41,472 nucleotides of DNA from Calothrix sp. MO_167.B12 (lineage in GTDB: Bacteria > Cyanobacteriota > Cyanobacteriia > Cyanobacteriales > Nostocaceae). This document shows positions 31,934-40,745 of the stretch, piece by piece; position 1 is the first letter of the stretch; each line of letters begins with the position of its first letter. The notes beneath the pieces are model-generated. The model did no database searches. It had not been told where the DNA came from and saw only the letters and a program-made list of their open reading frames with translations. The translations under genes and the position numbers were made by a program. The DNA lies in the NCBI GenBank assembly GCA_030066045.1, contig JASJCJ010000047.1, positions 1 through 41,472 of the forward strand, in the 5' to 3' direction.

Positions 31934-32289
31934 CTTAAAAAACCTGAATGGGTGGATGAATCAAAGAGTGAAAGTTGTCGTCAGGGTTGGCATGATGTAA
32001 TGATTGGAAATACCACACCTATTTCTCAATTATGGTCACAATCAAGAATAAAATGCTGAAAAGTGGTAATTTACTAATTTATACTACTTTGCTTGTAATA
32101 TAAATGAAATTTACCGATTAAATATTAGATAAACCCGGTTTCTGGTATTAGTATTAATAAATCGGTACTACGGCAGAAATAAAAAAATTTTTAACCCTCC
32201 GCGACCCTACGCTTACAGAGGGAAAAGAGAAGAAGGGTAAAGGGGAAAACGACTAAAGTATAAAGGGCTACTGAATATTCCTCCCAACA

Positions 32290-32410
32290 GCGCACACAAC
32301 ACGAAAACCGCTATTGTAGATGATGAAGTCGCGCACCGCCCTACCTAAGGTCGTTGATGCGGCACGCAGAGCGGCAGTTATAAGGATTGTCGCCCCAGAA
32401 ACCGCCCCGC
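32290..32410 (-). other. Candidate DGR variable region (VR) at the 3' end of the FGE-domain gene
   Basis: Read on the minus strand, the last FGE-domain codons before the GGTTTTCGTGTTGTGTGC end are almost all NNC or NNT at the exposed positions: GGC GAC AAT, TAT AAC, TGC, ATC AAC GAC, and in the +1-shifted frame GAC TTC ATC ATC TAC AAT AGC. Each can be made from an AAC or AAT codon by changing adenines only, which is the mark of adenine-specific mutagenesis by diversity-generating retroelements. The invariant end (GFRVVCAVGRN) would contain the homing site. No template repeat, reverse transcriptase or Avd gene lies in the window, so diversification would act in trans. Confidence 0.55.
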
Positions 32411-35400
32411 AGAACAGTACAAGAAGTTTCTTGAGAAAGATTATCATTGTCATCAAACCAAGCACTGCCATCTGTCGGCGCTCCCTCATAGTTATCATGC
32501 GAATCATCAAGACACCACTCCAAGACATTGCCGTGCATATCGTACAAACCGAAAGCATTAGCTACCTGAAACATCCCCACTGGAGTCGTTTCACTGCGAT
32601 TTACGCCCCTTTCTCCAGAACCATAGATATGGCTGCCATTGTAATTCGCCAAATCGGTTGAAATTGTCTCCCCAAAGTGAAATGGGGTTGTTGTTCCAGC
32701 CCTACAGGCATATTCCCACTCCGCTTCACTGGGTAATCGAAATTCTTGCCCTGTATGCTGGGAAATACGGGCACAAAACTCCACAGCATCATACCAACTA
32801 ACTCTTTCTACAGGGCGATTAGCGCCTTGAAAACGAGAAGGATTGGGTTCCAGTTCACGTTCTACTTGAGGTAGTGCTGCAACGGCTTTCCACTGTGCCT
32901 GAGTTATTGGATACTTACCCATCAGGAATGGTGCTACTGTCACTTTATGCTGTGGGCGTTCATTATTGCTCGATTCTTCCTCTTCAGGGGGTGAACCCAT
33001 CAAAAATGTCCCCCCTGGAATTTCTGCCATTTCCAAGATGACATCATTGGGCAAGTCTATCTCTACTGTGGGTGGATGTTCTACAAGGCGAATTGACTCT
33101 ACACCGTCTTTAATTTCTGCAATCAGCATGGGAATGTCTTCCCCTAGCTGTTTTAGTGGCTTGGCAGCTTCTCTACGAGTTTTTGCTACTTCGCTGTCAT
33201 TTTCCAGAACTTTCCGTAGGGGACGAACTGCTTTTTTTGCAGCTTTACCTATGGTTCCCAACTCGGTAACAGCATCAGCACGATACTTTTCATTGCGCAT
33301 GGAAAGATCGTTAATCAACCTCTTGATGCGGGATTCCTGCTCTTTTTGCTCAATTATTTTCGGATCTAAGCCTGCTATCTTAACTAATTCCTCAACTACA
33401 TTTTCGGGTATCTTGAGTTCTTTTTTCTTGAGTTCACAACAGTCCCACAACGCTTTCAAAAAGCCTTGGATGGCTTCCAGGTTTTCTGGTTTTTCCCTAA
33501 TATCCTTTAGGAGTTCGTTCCAAGGGGCTTCATTATCTTTATGCTTTTCAACCAGATGTAACCCAGCCAAATATTCCGCCAAGGGGTCTAAAGTAATACG
33601 TATCTTATCTGGTTCCACCTTTTGGAGTAGCTTTAAAGAGGTTTCCAAGTGGTTTAAGCGGGTATTGGCATCATCTGTATCATCAACCTCCTTCAAAGCT
33701 TCTAGGGCTGTTTTTCGCTGCACTGGGGCTGGACGGTAGGTTTGTTCTAAGCACTTCCAAGAAACTGCTTGTGCATCCCGATGAACTGCTAACTGTTGTG
33801 TCCCTTCTGCATTGGAGTTGAGTTGATTAAGATAACTCAGCATTAGTTCTGGGATATTTTCTGGCAAGTCTCCCGTCCCTTCTGTATTGGCAATCATTTG
33901 GTCAGCATAGAGCTTTGCTAGTAGGATGGTGATGTTGCGCTGCCCTACCATCCGTTTGAGACGAAGACAAGCACTGAGAAAATCTTCGTCATCAAACTTA
34001 TCGCGTTTGTCCCGTAACTTGAGGTATTCACCCAGAAATTCTGAAATTCTTTCTCCTTCCACCCGCATGGGTTTGAGGGTGGATTTCGGTATACCATTCA
34101 GTTCTTCTGCCAATCTTGATGTAATAATTAAGGCATTAACAATCGGAGATTTGCTGATATCCTCAAGAATTTTGTCACGGGTTGGCTTTGCTAGTTCCGA
34201 GAAATGATCGACAATCACCAGGACACGTCGCTGTTGCAACAGATTTTTGAGATATTCGGGTTGAATTTCCTCATCTCCAGTATTTGTTAAGTCTTGCAGT
34301 TGATTCTGAATTACTTGCAGCAGGTTCTCATGCTCTTGTAATTCTCTATCAATTAGCACAGGTAACAGCAGATGGTTACTGAGTTTACCCTCCATTCCCC
34401 AACGGGCAATTTGACAGGCTAAACTAGTTTTGCCTGCACCCCCTTCTCCTTGAATTAATAAACAAAACTGTTGTTCTTTCGATATCAGTGGCTGTAGTGC
34501 CTGCTGGAGTGGTTTGTGTTCTGGTGGTTCTGGGTTATTGTCATTAACTTCAACTGCTGGAATCAGGGTTTTGCTATTTAGCACAACAGGCAAAGGTACA
34601 TGGGTTGTGCGATCGCGCGTTACTATATCTTTAGCAAGAAACTCTTTCTGTACGGAGTCAAGATGCTTTTTGACCCATGCATCTAACACTGTGGAGTGAT
34701 ACTTAAAAAATAAGACTTTTTCCAGTGGTAAGTTGAACCCAACAAACGGTAGTTTGATAGTCTGAGACTGCAATACTTTATCCAGTTGCAGCAACCACAG
34801 TGGACGAAGGGCAAAGATGCCCAAGTAACCCAATCCAGCTAATAGCAAGGATATCCACGGATTTTTGCTTACCCACTCAACGGAACGATAACCAATTCTT
34901 GCCTGCAAATGTTTCACTTTAGTTTGCAGGGGATTTTTAGTCAAGCGCAGTTCTTGTCGCGCTTGTTTTTGATTCTTCCATTCCTGATATTTAGGATCTA
35001 TACCCTTAAGGGCTTTCTCTATCTGTTTTTTGAGTGACTCTAGTTCTGTAACTGCACCCAAATCTATCTCAGAGAAGTTATCTGCTTGCTTTTGTGCGGA
35101 TCTACCAATGGCGATTAAGCTACGAACTGAATTTTGACGAACTGCTGTGTCTTCATCTCCTAACGCTTCTACCAGTTCCGGAACGGCTTCCCGTGCTGTC
35201 CAGCCGATTTTCCCCAAGCTGTCAGCAACATTCCCACGGATGACAGCGTTACTATCACTCAAAGCTTCTGCTAGAGGTGCGATCGCATTCTCCCCACACT
35301 TTACCAATACATCACTGGCAGCTTTACGACTTTTATCATCCTTTAACTTTTGAATCTGCTCCTTCACATCTGCTGGCATACAATTCTGCGCCCAAGCATT

Positions 35401-35484
35401 ACTACTGACAAATAAAGGTAGCAATAAACTCAAGCAAGCAGCATTAAACCAGAGAGCAATCTTGTACGAGGAGCTTTGACTCAT
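32341..35484 (-). CDS. HEAT-NACHT-FGE multidomain protein, probable DGR target, 3' end frameshifted
   Basis: The frame encodes 1047 residues. Residues 1-33 are a signal peptide or anchor (ALWFNAACLSLLLPLFVSS). HEAT-like repeats follow (about 50-135), then a transmembrane helix (about 208-233) and a NACHT/STAND NTPase with Walker A GEGGAGKTS (346-354) and Walker B VLVIVDH (421-427). A second short HEAT stretch (about 735-800) precedes an FGE-sulfatase/C-type-lectin domain (818 to the end: IPGGTFLMGSPPEEE, RLPSEAEWEYACRAG, YDMHGNVLEW, LRGGFWGDNPYNCRSACR). The frame stops at TAG 32343-32341, but the other frame continues LGRAVRDFIIYNSGFRVVCA down to 32268. An indel has therefore removed the last ~26 family residues. 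Such architectures occur in multicellular bacteria and are thought to act in recognition or conflict signalling. Confidence 0.8.
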   Translation of the reverse strand: MSQSSSYKIALWFNAACLSLLLPLFVSSNAWAQNCMPADVKEQIQKLKDDKSRKAASDVLVKCGENAIAPLAEALSDSNAVIRGNVADSLGKIGWTAREAVPELVEALGDEDTAVRQNSVRSLIAIGRSAQKQADNFSEIDLGAVTELESLKKQIEKALKGIDPKYQEWKNQKQARQELRLTKNPLQTKVKHLQARIGYRSVEWVSKNPWISLLLAGLGYLGIFALRPLWLLQLDKVLQSQTIKLPFVGFNLPLEKVLFFKYHSTVLDAWVKKHLDSVQKEFLAKDIVTRDRTTHVPLPVVLNSKTLIPAVEVNDNNPEPPEHKPLQQALQPLISKEQQFCLLIQGEGGAGKTSLACQIARWGMEGKLSNHLLLPVLIDRELQEHENLLQVIQNQLQDLTNTGDEEIQPEYLKNLLQQRRVLVIVDHFSELAKPTRDKILEDISKSPIVNALIITSRLAEELNGIPKSTLKPMRVEGERISEFLGEYLKLRDKRDKFDDEDFLSACLRLKRMVGQRNITILLAKLYADQMIANTEGTGDLPENIPELMLSYLNQLNSNAEGTQQLAVHRDAQAVSWKCLEQTYRPAPVQRKTALEALKEVDDTDDANTRLNHLETSLKLLQKVEPDKIRITLDPLAEYLAGLHLVEKHKDNEAPWNELLKDIREKPENLEAIQGFLKALWDCCELKKKELKIPENVVEELVKIAGLDPKIIEQKEQESRIKRLINDLSMRNEKYRADAVTELGTIGKAAKKAVRPLRKVLENDSEVAKTRREAAKPLKQLGEDIPMLIAEIKDGVESIRLVEHPPTVEIDLPNDVILEMAEIPGGTFLMGSPPEEEESSNNERPQHKVTVAPFLMGKYPITQAQWKAVAALPQVERELEPNPSRFQGANRPVERVSWYDAVEFCARISQHTGQEFRLPSEAEWEYACRAGTTTPFHFGETISTDLANYNGSHIYGSGERGVNRSETTPVGMFQVANAFGLYDMHGNVLEWCLDDSHDNYEGAPTDGSAWFDDNDNLSQETSCTVLRGGFWGDNPYNCRSACRINDLR

Positions 35485-35685: not shown

Positions 35686-36813
35686 GTGGCTAATCAAGCA
35701 GAAACTCTCACTCGCACACCCCTATTCCCCCTCGCCCAACAACTAAAAGCCAGATTTACCGGCTTTGGTGGCTGGGAAATGCCTGTCCAATTTAGCGGCA
35801 TCACCAAAGAACATGAAGCTGTCAGAAATAATGCCGGGATGTTCGATATTTCCCACATGGGTAAATTTACCCTCCAAGGCAAAGAATTAATCGCTCAACT
35901 TCAAAAATTAGTACCGTCTGACTTCAGCCGCTTACAACCAGGACAAGCACAATACAGCGTCTTGTTAAATAAAAACGGTGGTATTATAGACGACATCATT
36001 TTTTACTACCAAGGTGTAGATGATACTGGTACGCAACGGGGAGTATTAATTGTCAATGCTGCTACCACTGCCAAAGACAAGGCATGGTTACTCAAACATA
36101 TAGATACCAGTAAAATACAATTTCAAGACCTTTCCCCAGACAAAGTATTACTAGCCGTCCAAGGGCCAAAAGCCACTGCCATCCTCCAGCAATTTGTCAG
36201 CGCAGATTTAAGTCCCATCAAAGCCTTTGGACATTTAGAAGCCAATGTACTTGATAAACCAGCTTTTCTTGCCCGTACTGGTTATACAGGGGAAGATGGC
36301 TTTGAGGTAATGGTAGATCCCGAAGTTGGCATAGAACTGTGGCAAAAGCTACTGGATGCCGGGGTCACTCCCTGTGGCCTGGGTGCCAGGGATACCCTGC
36401 GACTGGAAGCAGCTATGGCACTATATGGACAAGATATTGATGATACCACCACCCCCCTCGAAGCGGGTTTGGGGTGGTTAGTTCATTTAGATACCAAAGG
36501 TGATTTTATTGGACGTGCAATTCTAGAACAGCAAAAATCCCAGGGTGTAACCCGTAGATTGGTGGGTTTACAAATGCAGGGACGCAACATTGCCCGTCAC
36601 GGATATCCAGTATTATCATCAGGTACAGTTGTTGGGGAAGTTACTAGTGGAACCCTTTCGCCTACCCTTGGTTATCCTGTAGCCTTAGCTTACTTACCCA
36701 AAAAAATCGCCAAAGTGGGACAGGAACTAGAAGTAGAAATCCGTGGCAAACATTACCCCGCAGTGGTGGTGAAAAAACCTTTTTACCGTTCCACAAGTCG
36801 CCTGACTAACTGA
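35686..36813 (+). CDS. gcvT: Aminomethyltransferase (glycine cleavage T protein)
   Basis: GcvT transfers the methylene group from the aminomethyl-lipoyl H protein to tetrahydrofolate and releases ammonia. The 375-residue product has the full pattern: LKARFTGFGGWEMPVQFSG, HEAVRNNAGMFDISHMGKF, ARTGYTGEDGFEV, CGLGARDTLRLEAAMALYG and EVTSGTLSPTLGYPVALAYL. It starts with GTG 35686. A TATATAAG sequence at about 35649 suits a -10 box, giving a leader of only about 30 bases. I looked for a glycine riboswitch in front and saw none. Confidence 0.97.
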   Translation: MANQAETLTRTPLFPLAQQLKARFTGFGGWEMPVQFSGITKEHEAVRNNAGMFDISHMGKFTLQGKELIAQLQKLVPSDFSRLQPGQAQYSVLLNKNGGIIDDIIFYYQGVDDTGTQRGVLIVNAATTAKDKAWLLKHIDTSKIQFQDLSPDKVLLAVQGPKATAILQQFVSADLSPIKAFGHLEANVLDKPAFLARTGYTGEDGFEVMVDPEVGIELWQKLLDAGVTPCGLGARDTLRLEAAMALYGQDIDDTTTPLEAGLGWLVHLDTKGDFIGRAILEQQKSQGVTRRLVGLQMQGRNIARHGYPVLSSGTVVGEVTSGTLSPTLGYPVALAYLPKKIAKVGQELEVEIRGKHYPAVVVKKPFYRSTSRLTN

Positions 36814-36916
36814 TAACATTTGAGATTGTGACAGAAATAACGTGTTTTGGCGTTGTTACATCTTCTGTTACATGGAGAACCATGATTAATGATTGTGTTT
36901 TGGGAAGGTAAGTAAT

Positions 36917-37303
36917 ATGTCAGATTATCCTAAAAATTTAAGATATTTGGATACCCATGAATATGTACGCTTAGAGGGTGACATGGCGACTATTGGTATT
37001 ACCGCCTTCGCCGTAGATCAATTGGGTGATATTGTCTTTTTGGAATTACCAGAAGTTGAAGACTCTGTGAGCAAGGGTGAAGGCTTTGGTTCCATTGAAT
37101 CAGTAAAGGCAGTGGAGGATCTCAAATCACCAGTAACAGGTACGGTGGTAGAACGTAACGAAGCCATGATTGAAGCACCAGAAAATATTGCCGGAGATCC
37201 CCATGGTGAGGGATGGTTACTGAAAGTGCGAGTTAGCGACTCCAGTGAGGTAGATGAAGCTATGAGTGCGGAAAAGTATAGTGCCCTGGTGGAGGGAGAG
37301 TGA
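36917..37303 (+). CDS. gcvH: Glycine cleavage system H protein
   Basis: From ATG 36917 the product has 128 residues, the normal length. GGAAGG (36903-36908) precedes it at 8 bases. An upstream in-frame start at 36893 adds 8 residues unlike the family. The lipoyl-carrying Lys64 lies in [12 protein letters not shown], and the sequence ends with the usual helix ([12 protein letters not shown]). It shuttles the aminomethyl intermediate between P, T and L proteins. It lies 103 bases after gcvT. Confidence 0.97.
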
Positions 37304-37636
37304 AGGAGTGAAAGGGTGAAGGAGGGAAGGAGGGATGGAGTGAAGGAGTGAAGGAGTGAAGGAGGGAAGGAGGGAAGGAGGGAAGGAGTGAAGGAGTGAA
37401 GGAGGGAAGGAGGGAAGGAGTGATGGAGTGAAGGAGGGAAGGAGTGAATAAGATAAATAAATAATATTTCTCCCCACACTCCCCATCTCCTCATCTCCCC
37501 ATCTCCCCATCTCCCCACACTCCCCATCTCCCCACACTCCCCACACTCCCCATCTCCCCACACTCCCCACACTCCCCATCTCCCCATCTCCCCATCTCCC
37601 CACACTCCCCACACTCCCCACACTCCCCATCCCCCT
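37304..37636. repeat. Purine-rich then pyrimidine-rich minisatellite between gcvH and gcvP
   Basis: Bases about 37304-37450 are GAAGGAGT/GAAGGAGG octads with almost no pyrimidines except T. After a 40-base AT linker, about 37470-37632 are CTCCCCATCTCCCCACA-type repeats with almost no purines except A. Minus-strand frames through it (up to 222 codons) are low complexity (Gly-Trp or Ser-Pro repeats) and not genes. The remainder to 37838 has an imperfect GCATACACCAGAATGCATGAA sequence also seen near 11768. Confidence 0.85.
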
Positions 37637-37838
37637 GTAAATAAATCGACAAAAATTACATAAACTGATGCTTTTGGGAGAACCACTCAAGGATAATTGT
37701 TGCAAAATATGAAATAGTTATTACCAATTGCATACACCAGAATGCATGAAAGAAAATGCCATTTATGCTTCCTTCTGCATTTCCCGTACTGCATTCCCCA
37801 TTCTATGTTCAAGTTAGTCACATCTGGAGAATAACTTA

Positions 37839-40745
37839 GTGGTATTAGAAGCCCCTCGTCCTCAGTCAAGTAATCAGCCTATGTTGGGCAATAGTAGTCA
37901 AAATTCAAGCGATTTTACACAACGTCACATTGGTCCAAATTCCCATGACATCCAGAAAATGCTGGATGTATTAGGGATTGCGAGTTTAAATGATTTGATT
38001 GACAAAGCTGTGCCACAAGGCATTAGGCTGGCTCGTTCTCTAGAATTACCGGCAGCGTTAAGCGAGTATGCTGCACTAGGCAAGTTAAAAGGCATAGCCT
38101 CGAAAAATCAGGTTTTTCGCTCATTTATTGGCATGGGATATTACGATTGTATTACCCCCACGGTAATTCAGCGCAATATCCTGGAAAATCCCGGTTGGTA
38201 CACTGCATATACTCCCTATCAACCAGAAATTGCCCAAGGAAGATTGGAAGCTTTATTAAACTTCCAAACCATGATGATTGATTTAACTGGGTTGGAAATC
38301 GCCAATGCTTCCCTATTGGATGAAGGGACAGCAGCAGCGGAAGCCATGAGCATGAGTTATGGCGTTACTAAACATAAGGCGAATGCTTTCTTTGTCTCCC
38401 AAGATTGCCATCCCCAAACCATCGACGTGTTACAGACCCGTGCCACACCTTTGGGGATTAATATTATAGTTGGTGACCATCAAACCTTTGATTTTTCAGA
38501 ACCAATTTTTGGGGCAATTTTACAATATCCCACCACTGACGGCACAATTTACGACTACCGCGCTTTTGTAGAAAAAGCCCATGCTGAGGGTGCATTGGTA
38601 ACGGTAGCCGCCGATCCTTTGAGCTTAACTTTACTCACACCCCCCGGTGAATTTGGTGCTGATATTGCCGTAGGTAGTACCCAACGTTTCGGTATTCCTA
38701 TGGGGTATGGGGGACCCCACGCCGCTTATTTCGCTACTAAGGACAAGTATAAGCGTCAGGTTCCTGGTAGAGTTGTGGGTGTCTCGAAAGATACCCAAGG
38801 TAACCCAGCATATCGTCTCTCCTTACAAACTAGAGAACAGCACATCCGCCGGGAGAAAGCTACCAGTAATATTTGTACAGCCCAGGTATTGCTAGCGGTG
38901 ATGGCAGGTATGTATGCTGTATATCATGGTCCTGATGGATTAAAAGCGATCGCACAACAAATTCATCAGCAAACTGCCATCCTCGCATCAGGTTTAAAGC
39001 AGCTTGGTTACAACATTACCAATGAATACTTCTTTGATACCCTGCGGGTAGATTTAGGCAACCAGAGTATGAAAGATATTCTCGCTGCTTGCCAACTCCA
39101 GAAAATTAACCTCCGCATTTTTGATAACAATAGTGTAGGTATTTCCCTAGATGAAACTACCACTACTGAAGATATCACAGACCTGTTAAATATTTTCGCA
39201 GGTAATTCCCCCACTCCTTCCGCTTCTTTTACTCCTCCTACTTCATTACCTGCAAATCTCTGCCGCGAAAGTAGCTACCTCACCCATCCCGTATTTAACA
39301 GTTACCACTCAGAAACAGAGTTACTGCGCTACCTGCACAAATTGGAATCTAGAGATTTGTCCCTGACAACATCCATGATTCCCTTGGGTTCCTGTACCAT
39401 GAAACTCAACGCCACATCGGAAATGATCCCCGTAACTTGGGCGGAGTTTGGTCAGATTCACCCCTTTGCCCCCCAATCCCAAACCAAGGGTTATCAACTC
39501 CTATTCCAGCAATTAGAGGAGTGGTTAGCAGAAATCACCGGATTTGCGGGTATTTCCCTCCAACCCAATGCCGGCGCCCAAGGGGAATATACTGGATTAC
39601 TAGTCATTCGCCAATATCATCAAAGCAGGGGCGAAGGACACCGCAACATTTGTTTAATCCCCACCTCAGCCCACGGAACCAATCCCGCCAGTGCGGTAAT
39701 GTGTGGCATGAAGGTAGTTGCCGTTGCTTGCGACAATGAAGGTAATATTGACCTGGATGACTTGAAAGCAAAAGCACAAAAGCATAGCAACGAACTTGCT
39801 GCTTTAATGGTGACATACCCCTCCACCCACGGCGTATTTGAATCAGCAATTCAGGAAATCTGTGCTGTAGTTCATAGCCACGGTGGGCAAGTATACATGG
39901 ATGGGGCAAATATGAACGCCCAATTAGGACTGTGTCGTCCGGCAGATATTGGTGCTGATGTATGCCACCTCAACCTACACAAAACCTTCTGTATTCCCCA
40001 CGGTGGCGGTGGTCCAGGAATGGGGCCCATTGGAACTGCTACCCATCTAACGCCCTTCCTCCCTGGACATTCAGTGGTAAAAATGGGTGAAAATCTCAGT
40101 ATGGGCGCAGTATCTGCTGCTCCTTGGGGTAGTGCCAGCATCCTAGTAATTTCCTGGATGTATATTGCCATGATGGGTGCAGATGGTTTGACAGATGCAA
40201 CCAAGGTAGCAATTCTCAACGCTAACTACATTGCCAAACGCCTAGAAGATTACTATCCTGTTTTATATAAAGGCGCAAATGGTCTAGTAGCCCATGAATG
40301 TATTTTAGACCTGCGTAACTTGAAAAAATCCGCCGGAGTGGAAATTGATGACGTTGCCAAAAGGCTAATGGACTTCGGTTTCCATGCCCCCACGGTTTCC
40401 TGGCCAGTGGCTGGTACAGTCATGGTGGAACCAACGGAAAGCGAATCTCTAGCAGAATTAGATCGTTTCTGTGAGGCACTGATTACCATTCGCCAAGAAA
40501 TTGCTGAGATTGAATCTGGTAAGGTAGATGCTGGGGATAATTTGCTGAAGAATGCACCCCACACCGCAGCTAGTTTGCTGACAGCAGACTGGAATCACCC
40601 CTATTCCCGCGAACAAGCAGCTTATCCCACACCTTGGGTTAAGGATAATAAATTCTGGCCAGCAGTAGGTCGCATTGATGCAGCATTCGGGGACAGAAAT
40701 TTTGTCTGTTCTTGTGTACCAATGGAAGCCTATTCCCAGGAATAG
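37839..40745 (+). CDS. gcvP: Glycine dehydrogenase (decarboxylating), P protein
   Basis: The 968-residue product is the full-length single-chain P protein. It begins with [18 protein letters not shown], has [38 protein letters not shown] and [23 protein letters not shown], in which Lys715 binds PLP. It decarboxylates glycine and loads the aminomethyl group on GcvH, and is needed for photorespiratory glycine in cyanobacteria. The start is GTG 37839 with GGAG 10 bases upstream. The 535-base repeat-rich gap after gcvH makes separate transcription possible. The L protein is not encoded here and is presumably shared. Confidence 0.97.

Follow-up and report, generated by a model that had tools for sequence, protein, structure and literature searches.

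A probably orphaned and broken remote target of a diversity-generating retroelement in a HEAT-NACHT gene of the cyanobacterium Calothrix sp. MO_167.B12

Here we describe a gene of Calothrix sp. MO_167.B12 that carries, at its 3′ end, the variable repeat (VR) of a diversity-generating retroelement (DGR), and that is, in our view, quite likely a true target remote from the retroelement, one that has probably been orphaned and broken. The window, the whole stretch of DNA analysed, is 41,472 nucleotides of contig JASJCJ010000047.1, and coordinates without a contig label refer to it. The target gene is an open reading frame of 1047 amino acids on the minus strand (32341-35484) that encodes HEAT, NACHT, NCH4 and FGE modules and ends early, inside its own VR. 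Coordinates calculated from residue numbers place the best stretch of HEAT repeats (Pfam HEAT_2, residues 68-131) at 35092-35283, the NACHT NTPase domain (Pfam NACHT, residues 342-457) at 34114-34461, and the NACHT C-terminal helical domain (Pfam NCH4, residues 665-708) at 33361-33492, all on the minus strand. The FGE-sulfatase (lectin-fold) domain, which the initial annotation had placed at the C-terminus of this HEAT-NACHT protein, is borne out by a Pfam profile match over residues 818-1044 (32353-33033, minus strand); the match stops at position 238 of 255 in the window gene and at position 254 in the orthologue of G031, one of two congeners (G031 and G030) used for comparison. Its solved relatives are Treponema variable protein 1 (PDB 2y3c, E 2.6e-19) and PvdO (PDB 5hha, E 3.2e-37), and the search for named relatives returned three loci with matches confined to residues 810-1047 or less. 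The protein has the layout of a NACHT-type (STAND) NTPase with a C-terminal sensor, NACHT and NCH4 standing before an FGE domain that is truncated, and at its N-terminus the Pfam search (E <= 0.01) found HEAT repeats and no effector of the nuclease, protease or TIR kind. The protein has hydrophobic segments around residues 7-29 and 208-232, and the second suggests that the HEAT repeats may face the periplasm, with NACHT and FGE in the cytoplasm rather than outside. The neighbourhood on the plus strand (35686-40745) holds gcvT (35686-36813), gcvH (36893-37303) and gcvP (37839-40745), and gcvT also flanks the target-gene orthologue in both congeners.

Alignment with relatives places the VR, which belongs to a third template class, at 32284-32412 on the minus strand. 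The C-terminal richness in NNC and NNT codons on which the suspicion of a DGR was first founded holds up at this site: of the 22 codons running from RGGF to the stop, 18 have C or T in third position, a level reached by 7 of 1026 equal-length stretches of the target gene, the VR stretch included. The codons quoted in the initial annotation do not form a single reading frame between RSA and GFRVVCAVGR, however, as they lie in two frames. The frame that holds RGGFW...CRSACRINDLR, and with it RSA, closes at a TAG inside the VR (32341-32343), and GFRVVCAVGR is read in another; DFIIYNSGFRVVCAVGR and GRAVRDFIIYNSGFRVVCAVGR read in the +1 frame relative to the target gene, and on translation the rest of the repeat, beginning with GRAVRDFIIYNSGFRVVCAVGR, is out of the gene frame (32268-32340, minus strand). 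One of the quoted codons, the ATC after GAC-NNC, can be read as an adenine change against the third-class template of the genome G061, which has AAC there, and not against that of G135, where it is already ATC. The frameshift and the early stop are due to a tandem TAGG TAGG (32340-32347, minus strand), a duplication that adds four bases beyond the relatives and supplies the stop TAG. The VR segment is in frame in every one of the 18 further aligned repeats of this class from the genus, six of G031 and seven of G030 among them, and the target-gene orthologues of both congeners stay open to the domain end. The window gene has the lectin fold in which a DGR target carries its VR, with the frame closing within that VR, so the intact hypervariable binding head first proposed is not supported, and from the reading frame the target protein has probably lost it.

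Indels are found in other VRs as well, with 3-base indels in five of them (C132, G031_C202, G031_C242, G030_C225 and G061_C13b), and among the aligned VR indels the window's alone is not a multiple of three. Such indels may arise incidentally during DGR copying. It is also conceivable that an error of assembly or sequencing created the frameshift in an intact remote target, since the assembly is a draft and all 18 of the other repeats and both orthologues are in frame; we hold this to be quite unlikely, because errors of base calling or in homopolymers do not usually take the form of a 4-bp tandem duplication, and because other changes fit a loosened constraint, two tryptophans common to both orthologues having become Leu and Ser just upstream in the window gene, and the RGGSW of relatives having become RGGFW. 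Beyond the frameshift, the substitution and singleton counts gave no strong sign of decay in the window FGE part: upstream of the VR the window gene has 9 non-synonymous and 9 synonymous changes of its own (9:16 in G031), and its three singleton changes in non-adenine VR columns are exceeded, at 4-6, in 3 of the 18 other repeats.

The genome itself (G000; a draft assembly of 321 contigs, 99.71% complete) does contain a DGR. The initial annotation saw no reverse transcriptase (RT) in the window and concluded that a remote retroelement was implied, and on both counts it was right: RT matches are absent from the whole window contig, and contig C280 carries on its minus strand, in order, an FGE target, an Avd, an RT and a template, TR1. 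The C280 Avd scores 145.5 bits against NF033474 (cut-off 80) and is alone above the cut-off among the three Avd matches in the genome. In NCBIfam the C280 RT is closest to group II maturases, at 137.4 bits far under the cut-off of 300, and its best solved-structure match is 8ub7, which we take to be the BPP-1 DGR complex; its DGR type is assigned because of the Avd, the template, the target and the 8ub7 match. Rfam gave no match on the C280 locus. The genome has eight RVT_1 matches, and the seven without such company were rejected as DGR RTs: six are group II-like, four of them over the 300-bit cut-off and two below it (C285, 270.5 bits; a fragment on C144, 82.3 bits), and one is retron-like. 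This retron-like RT, on C97 (L024, G000:C97:6239-6874), falls under the curated cut-offs.

TR1 differs from its C280 target at 20 of 31 adenines and at none of 83 other bases, and from a remote target on C146 at 14 of 31 and 1 of 83, with a poorer fit to the two repeats of C29 (C29a, 10 of 31 and 9 of 83; C29b, 16 of 31 and 5 of 83). A second template, TR2 on C95, differs from its neighbouring target at 12 of 28 adenines and 1 of 80 other bases, and fits other repeats of the genome less well (C303, 15 of 28 and 22 of 80; C266, 19 of 28 and 19 of 80; C110, 16 of 28 and 30 of 80). TR2 adjoins a kinase-FGE target (L166, G000:C95:9000-17465) on a contig without an RT match, so that one RT may serve two templates.

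The C280 retroelement is nevertheless not the source of the window VR, for both TR1 and TR2 are ruled out as its template by their length and constant codons. The third class, to which the window VR belongs, is shared by five other genes of the genome (C33, C65, C1, C132 and C242), and when adenines are read back into the variable columns, a template of the type NNNNRAERDNINNN is predicted. The genome-wide template search proposed in the initial annotation was answered only in part, with two templates and a DGR RT beside TR1, and none of the window VR class: a pattern with at most 3 mismatches and open variable columns returned only four VRs from the genome, and when the G135 template and its spacer were used for a similarity search, the draft assembly yielded TR1 and TR2 only. 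The same similarity search found no third-class template in G030 or G031, where it met short spacer-like scraps (G031:C143, E 0.046; G030:C206, E 0.46). When the pattern was run against 217 genomes of the family, a template of the predicted type came up in G135 and G061, both of other genera. Next to the G061 template are an RT with 74% identity to that of C280 and an ORF that by eye is Avd-like, and two G061 targets differ from this template at 15 and 16 of 33 adenines and at 1 of 92 other bases each; the G135 template lies on a contig without an RT match, and an RT with another template is found on C109 of that genome. The pattern fixes the non-adenine columns, and its matches were kept out of the adenine counts; similarity searches carry a milder bias of the same kind toward conserved non-adenine columns. 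One further repeat, G015:C37:8924-8994 (L082), has VR-like mutated codons yet a template-type spacer behind it, and is a mutated template or a target joined to a template flank.

Differences between the window VR and the templates of its class are concentrated at adenines, as in a C-terminal DGR target, the templates here coming from other genera. Against the G135 template it differs at 13 of 31 adenines and 9 of 94 other bases (p 1.5e-4), and against the G061 template at 15 of 33 and 14 of 92 (p 7.5e-4). The cleaner comparison, with the G031 orthologue, whose orthology is given by the flanking genes (gcvT is 96.1% identical), yields differences at 24 of 31 template-adenine columns and at 8 of 94 others (p 4.9e-13), and 24 of 31 is about the 75% expected of random bases. 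Adenine columns were defined by the G135 template, and the comparison covers 21 VRs (19 of the genus and two of G061); gapped columns, including inserted bases, were left out, as were the similarity rows G030:C436, G030:C302, G000:C207, C146 and C95 and short matches. The adenine excess against G031 means that the repeat has been altered in one lineage or in both after they split, a change that we would attribute to retrohoming rather than to exchange with another repeat of the class. Among the aligned repeats no close donor for the window VR was found, the adenine columns differing at at least 15 of 29-31. Four pairs of repeats from the two genomes could be matched by both flanks, and three have the adenine excess, namely the window pair as above and two others (18 of 29 adenine columns and 11 of 93 others; 17 of 31 and 16 of 94), while the fourth, C242 and G031:C112, is unchanged (0 of 31 and 1 of 94). 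Neighbouring genes were inspected for the window pair and for C242/C112, two of these four; no partner was matched to C65 or C132, and no G030 partner passed. C242 (L164) and G031:C112 (L169) are orthologous kinase-FGE genes, and their VRs, alike but for one base, have been frozen since the split.

Repeat exchange between paralogues could yield the same adenine pattern, and it finds support in the mosaic make-up of the target gene elsewhere. The first 216 nucleotides are 97% identical to the G031 orthologue and 189 of 213 amino acids of the FGE part agree with it, whereas in the NACHT part only 231 of 456 do, compared with 429 of 480 between G031 and G030. This middle part (33100-35250, minus strand) has about 50% identity to its orthologues, with both ends at about 90-97%. 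Its nearest relative in the 217 genomes, among the best five candidates per genome, belongs to another genus (G040, 64%), with congeners at 46-47%, and the signalling part has, by these alignments, probably been replaced by recombination, as a module. One could go further and dispense with a DGR history, seeing in the FGE part a lectin-type domain of the ordinary sort, with exposed codons that differ through selection and paralogue exchange, in a mosaic gene with many paralogues (26 FGE-sulfatase matches in the genome). We find this hardly credible, as the differences fall at template adenines and not on codons in general, and predicted templates were met in two other genera, one of them beside an RT. 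The initial annotation had named two results that would speak against a DGR, a genome lacking a DGR RT and change as frequent at other bases as at adenines, and both came out in favour of one; a DGR origin is preferred because an RT, an Avd and a template exist in the genome and because VR/template differences concentrate at template adenines.

Directly behind the VR lies a pyrimidine-rich element of 18 bp, TAGCCCTTTATACTTTAG (32253-32270, minus strand), a candidate target-site signal; the window copy, TAGCCCTTTAYACTYTAG, matches it perfectly. With at most 2 mismatches, all 11 matches of the element in the genome lie behind FGE genes (the reversed pattern gave 4), and with at most 3 it stands behind 15 of the 19 FGE repeat genes; it is absent behind C207, C166, C278 and C317b (6-9 mismatches) and behind TR1 and TR2 (8 and 9 mismatches). 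In the family, 24 of 27 VR loci carry it with at most 3 mismatches, 28-31 bases behind GGTTTTCG, a count made in the same VR loci from which the element was derived; the 27 are what is left of 30 loci, representing 43 pattern matches, after two templates and one hybrid are set aside, and these three lack it (8-10 mismatches). Random stretches of the same loci reach an element with at most 3 mismatches in 49 of 3000 cases. Pairwise identity is 0.83 around the element and goes down to 0.3-0.4 beyond 50 bases, in 24 rows chosen for having it. No hairpin was found at the element, all six stretches folding worse than the shuffle mean (z 0.44 to 1.74). Tentatively, and with more doubt than conviction, we propose that the element may be a hairpin-free target address of Nostoc-family DGRs across template classes, such that loss of a template would freeze a whole sensor class. 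Alternatively, it could have been inherited as the flank of a cassette that dispersed, or belong to a terminator region. If it is an address, one RT-Avd complex could write several templates into dispersed sensor genes, and what template loss leaves would be a fixed sensor repertoire in which single members, such as the window gene, decay. The open-licence literature yielded one candidate paper on frameshifted targets and no report of conserved motifs behind cyanobacterial repeats, which is weak evidence of absence; a common element behind targets offers a concrete candidate for the means by which a retroelement finds remote targets.

In the congeners the machinery has decayed. G030 gave no match to the C280 RT and holds an Avd scrap with two stops (33.5 bits, G030:C407:350-472), and G031 has RT fragments, among them the remnant G031:C46:1981-2709 and one with a TGA, and no Avd match. 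The genome of the window, unlike these congeners, keeps an RT and an Avd with TR1 and TR2. Over the three species searched, a third-class template was found in none and an intact DGR-type RT was not found in two. Most simply, third-class repeats would be stranded in the genus, and the window copy would be broken too. Since the assembly is a draft, a third-class template may be missing from it, and one lying in an assembly gap or a missed replicon would make the target live and its frameshift a passing off-state, which the next retrohoming would overwrite because the duplication sits inside the replaced stretch. The intact C280 RT and Avd, the draft state of the assembly, the adenine columns as different from G031 as random bases and the perfect element behind the VR all agree with a live target; against it, the similarity search that found TR1 and TR2 found no third-class template in this genome or in either congener, and we judge it rather unlikely.

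As an orphaned and broken target, the gene would have the following history. In an ancestor, a DGR RT-Avd complex would have reverse-transcribed a third-class template RNA, miscopying its adenines, and the 3′ end of the target gene would have given way to the cDNA, biochemical steps that we infer; a later 4-bp tandem duplication would then have shifted the frame and cut off the last part of the lectin-fold domain. Because no third-class template was found, the RT-Avd, left with TR1 and TR2, would lack a source for rewriting the window site, and the broken repeat should therefore stay broken. The gene would then show a possible fate of DGR-diversified sensors once the template goes. With a class of repeats that persists though no template was found, and with one frozen orthologue pair set against three changed ones, comparison of congeners can test how a bacterial repertoire of hypervariable sensors arises and is lost.

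Remote targets of DGRs, and degenerate ones, have been described before. For cyanobacteria, Vallota-Eastman et al. (2020, PMC7517822) describe 76 remote targets and lectin-fold paralogues that are dispersed, together with a remnant target, all3226, which has no RT nearby. The window gene resembles the remote variable proteins described there in its C-terminal lectin-fold module with a VR far from the RT, and differs from those targets in its frameshifted VR and in a template class that was not found though the genome has another DGR; neither HEAT nor NACHT is mentioned in the main text of that paper. The targets of the Nostoc punctiforme DGR, two in number and with adenine-specific variation observed by resequencing in culture, are reported to lie inside the DGR locus, with the template expressed (mBio 2025, PMC12691664), whereas the window target is remote and its template missing. 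Among structural relatives, Treponema variable protein 1 (2y3c) and PvdO (5hha) share the FGE/lectin fold and have no HEAT or NACHT match, and the window domain ends early. The target site of BPP-1, as described by Guo et al. (2011, PMC3240598), consists of an IMH and a downstream hairpin; the window site is like it in that a conserved element follows the VR immediately and is lacking after the templates examined, and unlike it in that the element has no hairpin. Closest in architecture are the Thiohalocapsa systems described by Dore et al. (2024, PMC10907252), where targets are fused to NACHT/STAND modules, some loci are degenerate and some VRs match no template of the genome perfectly. Common to both are a NACHT module fused to a DGR-diversified lectin-fold domain and loci with missing parts; the window gene is cyanobacterial and has HEAT repeats in front, a word absent from the main text of that report, and, unlike in Thiohalocapsa as described there, template loss is traced here across three species of one genus.
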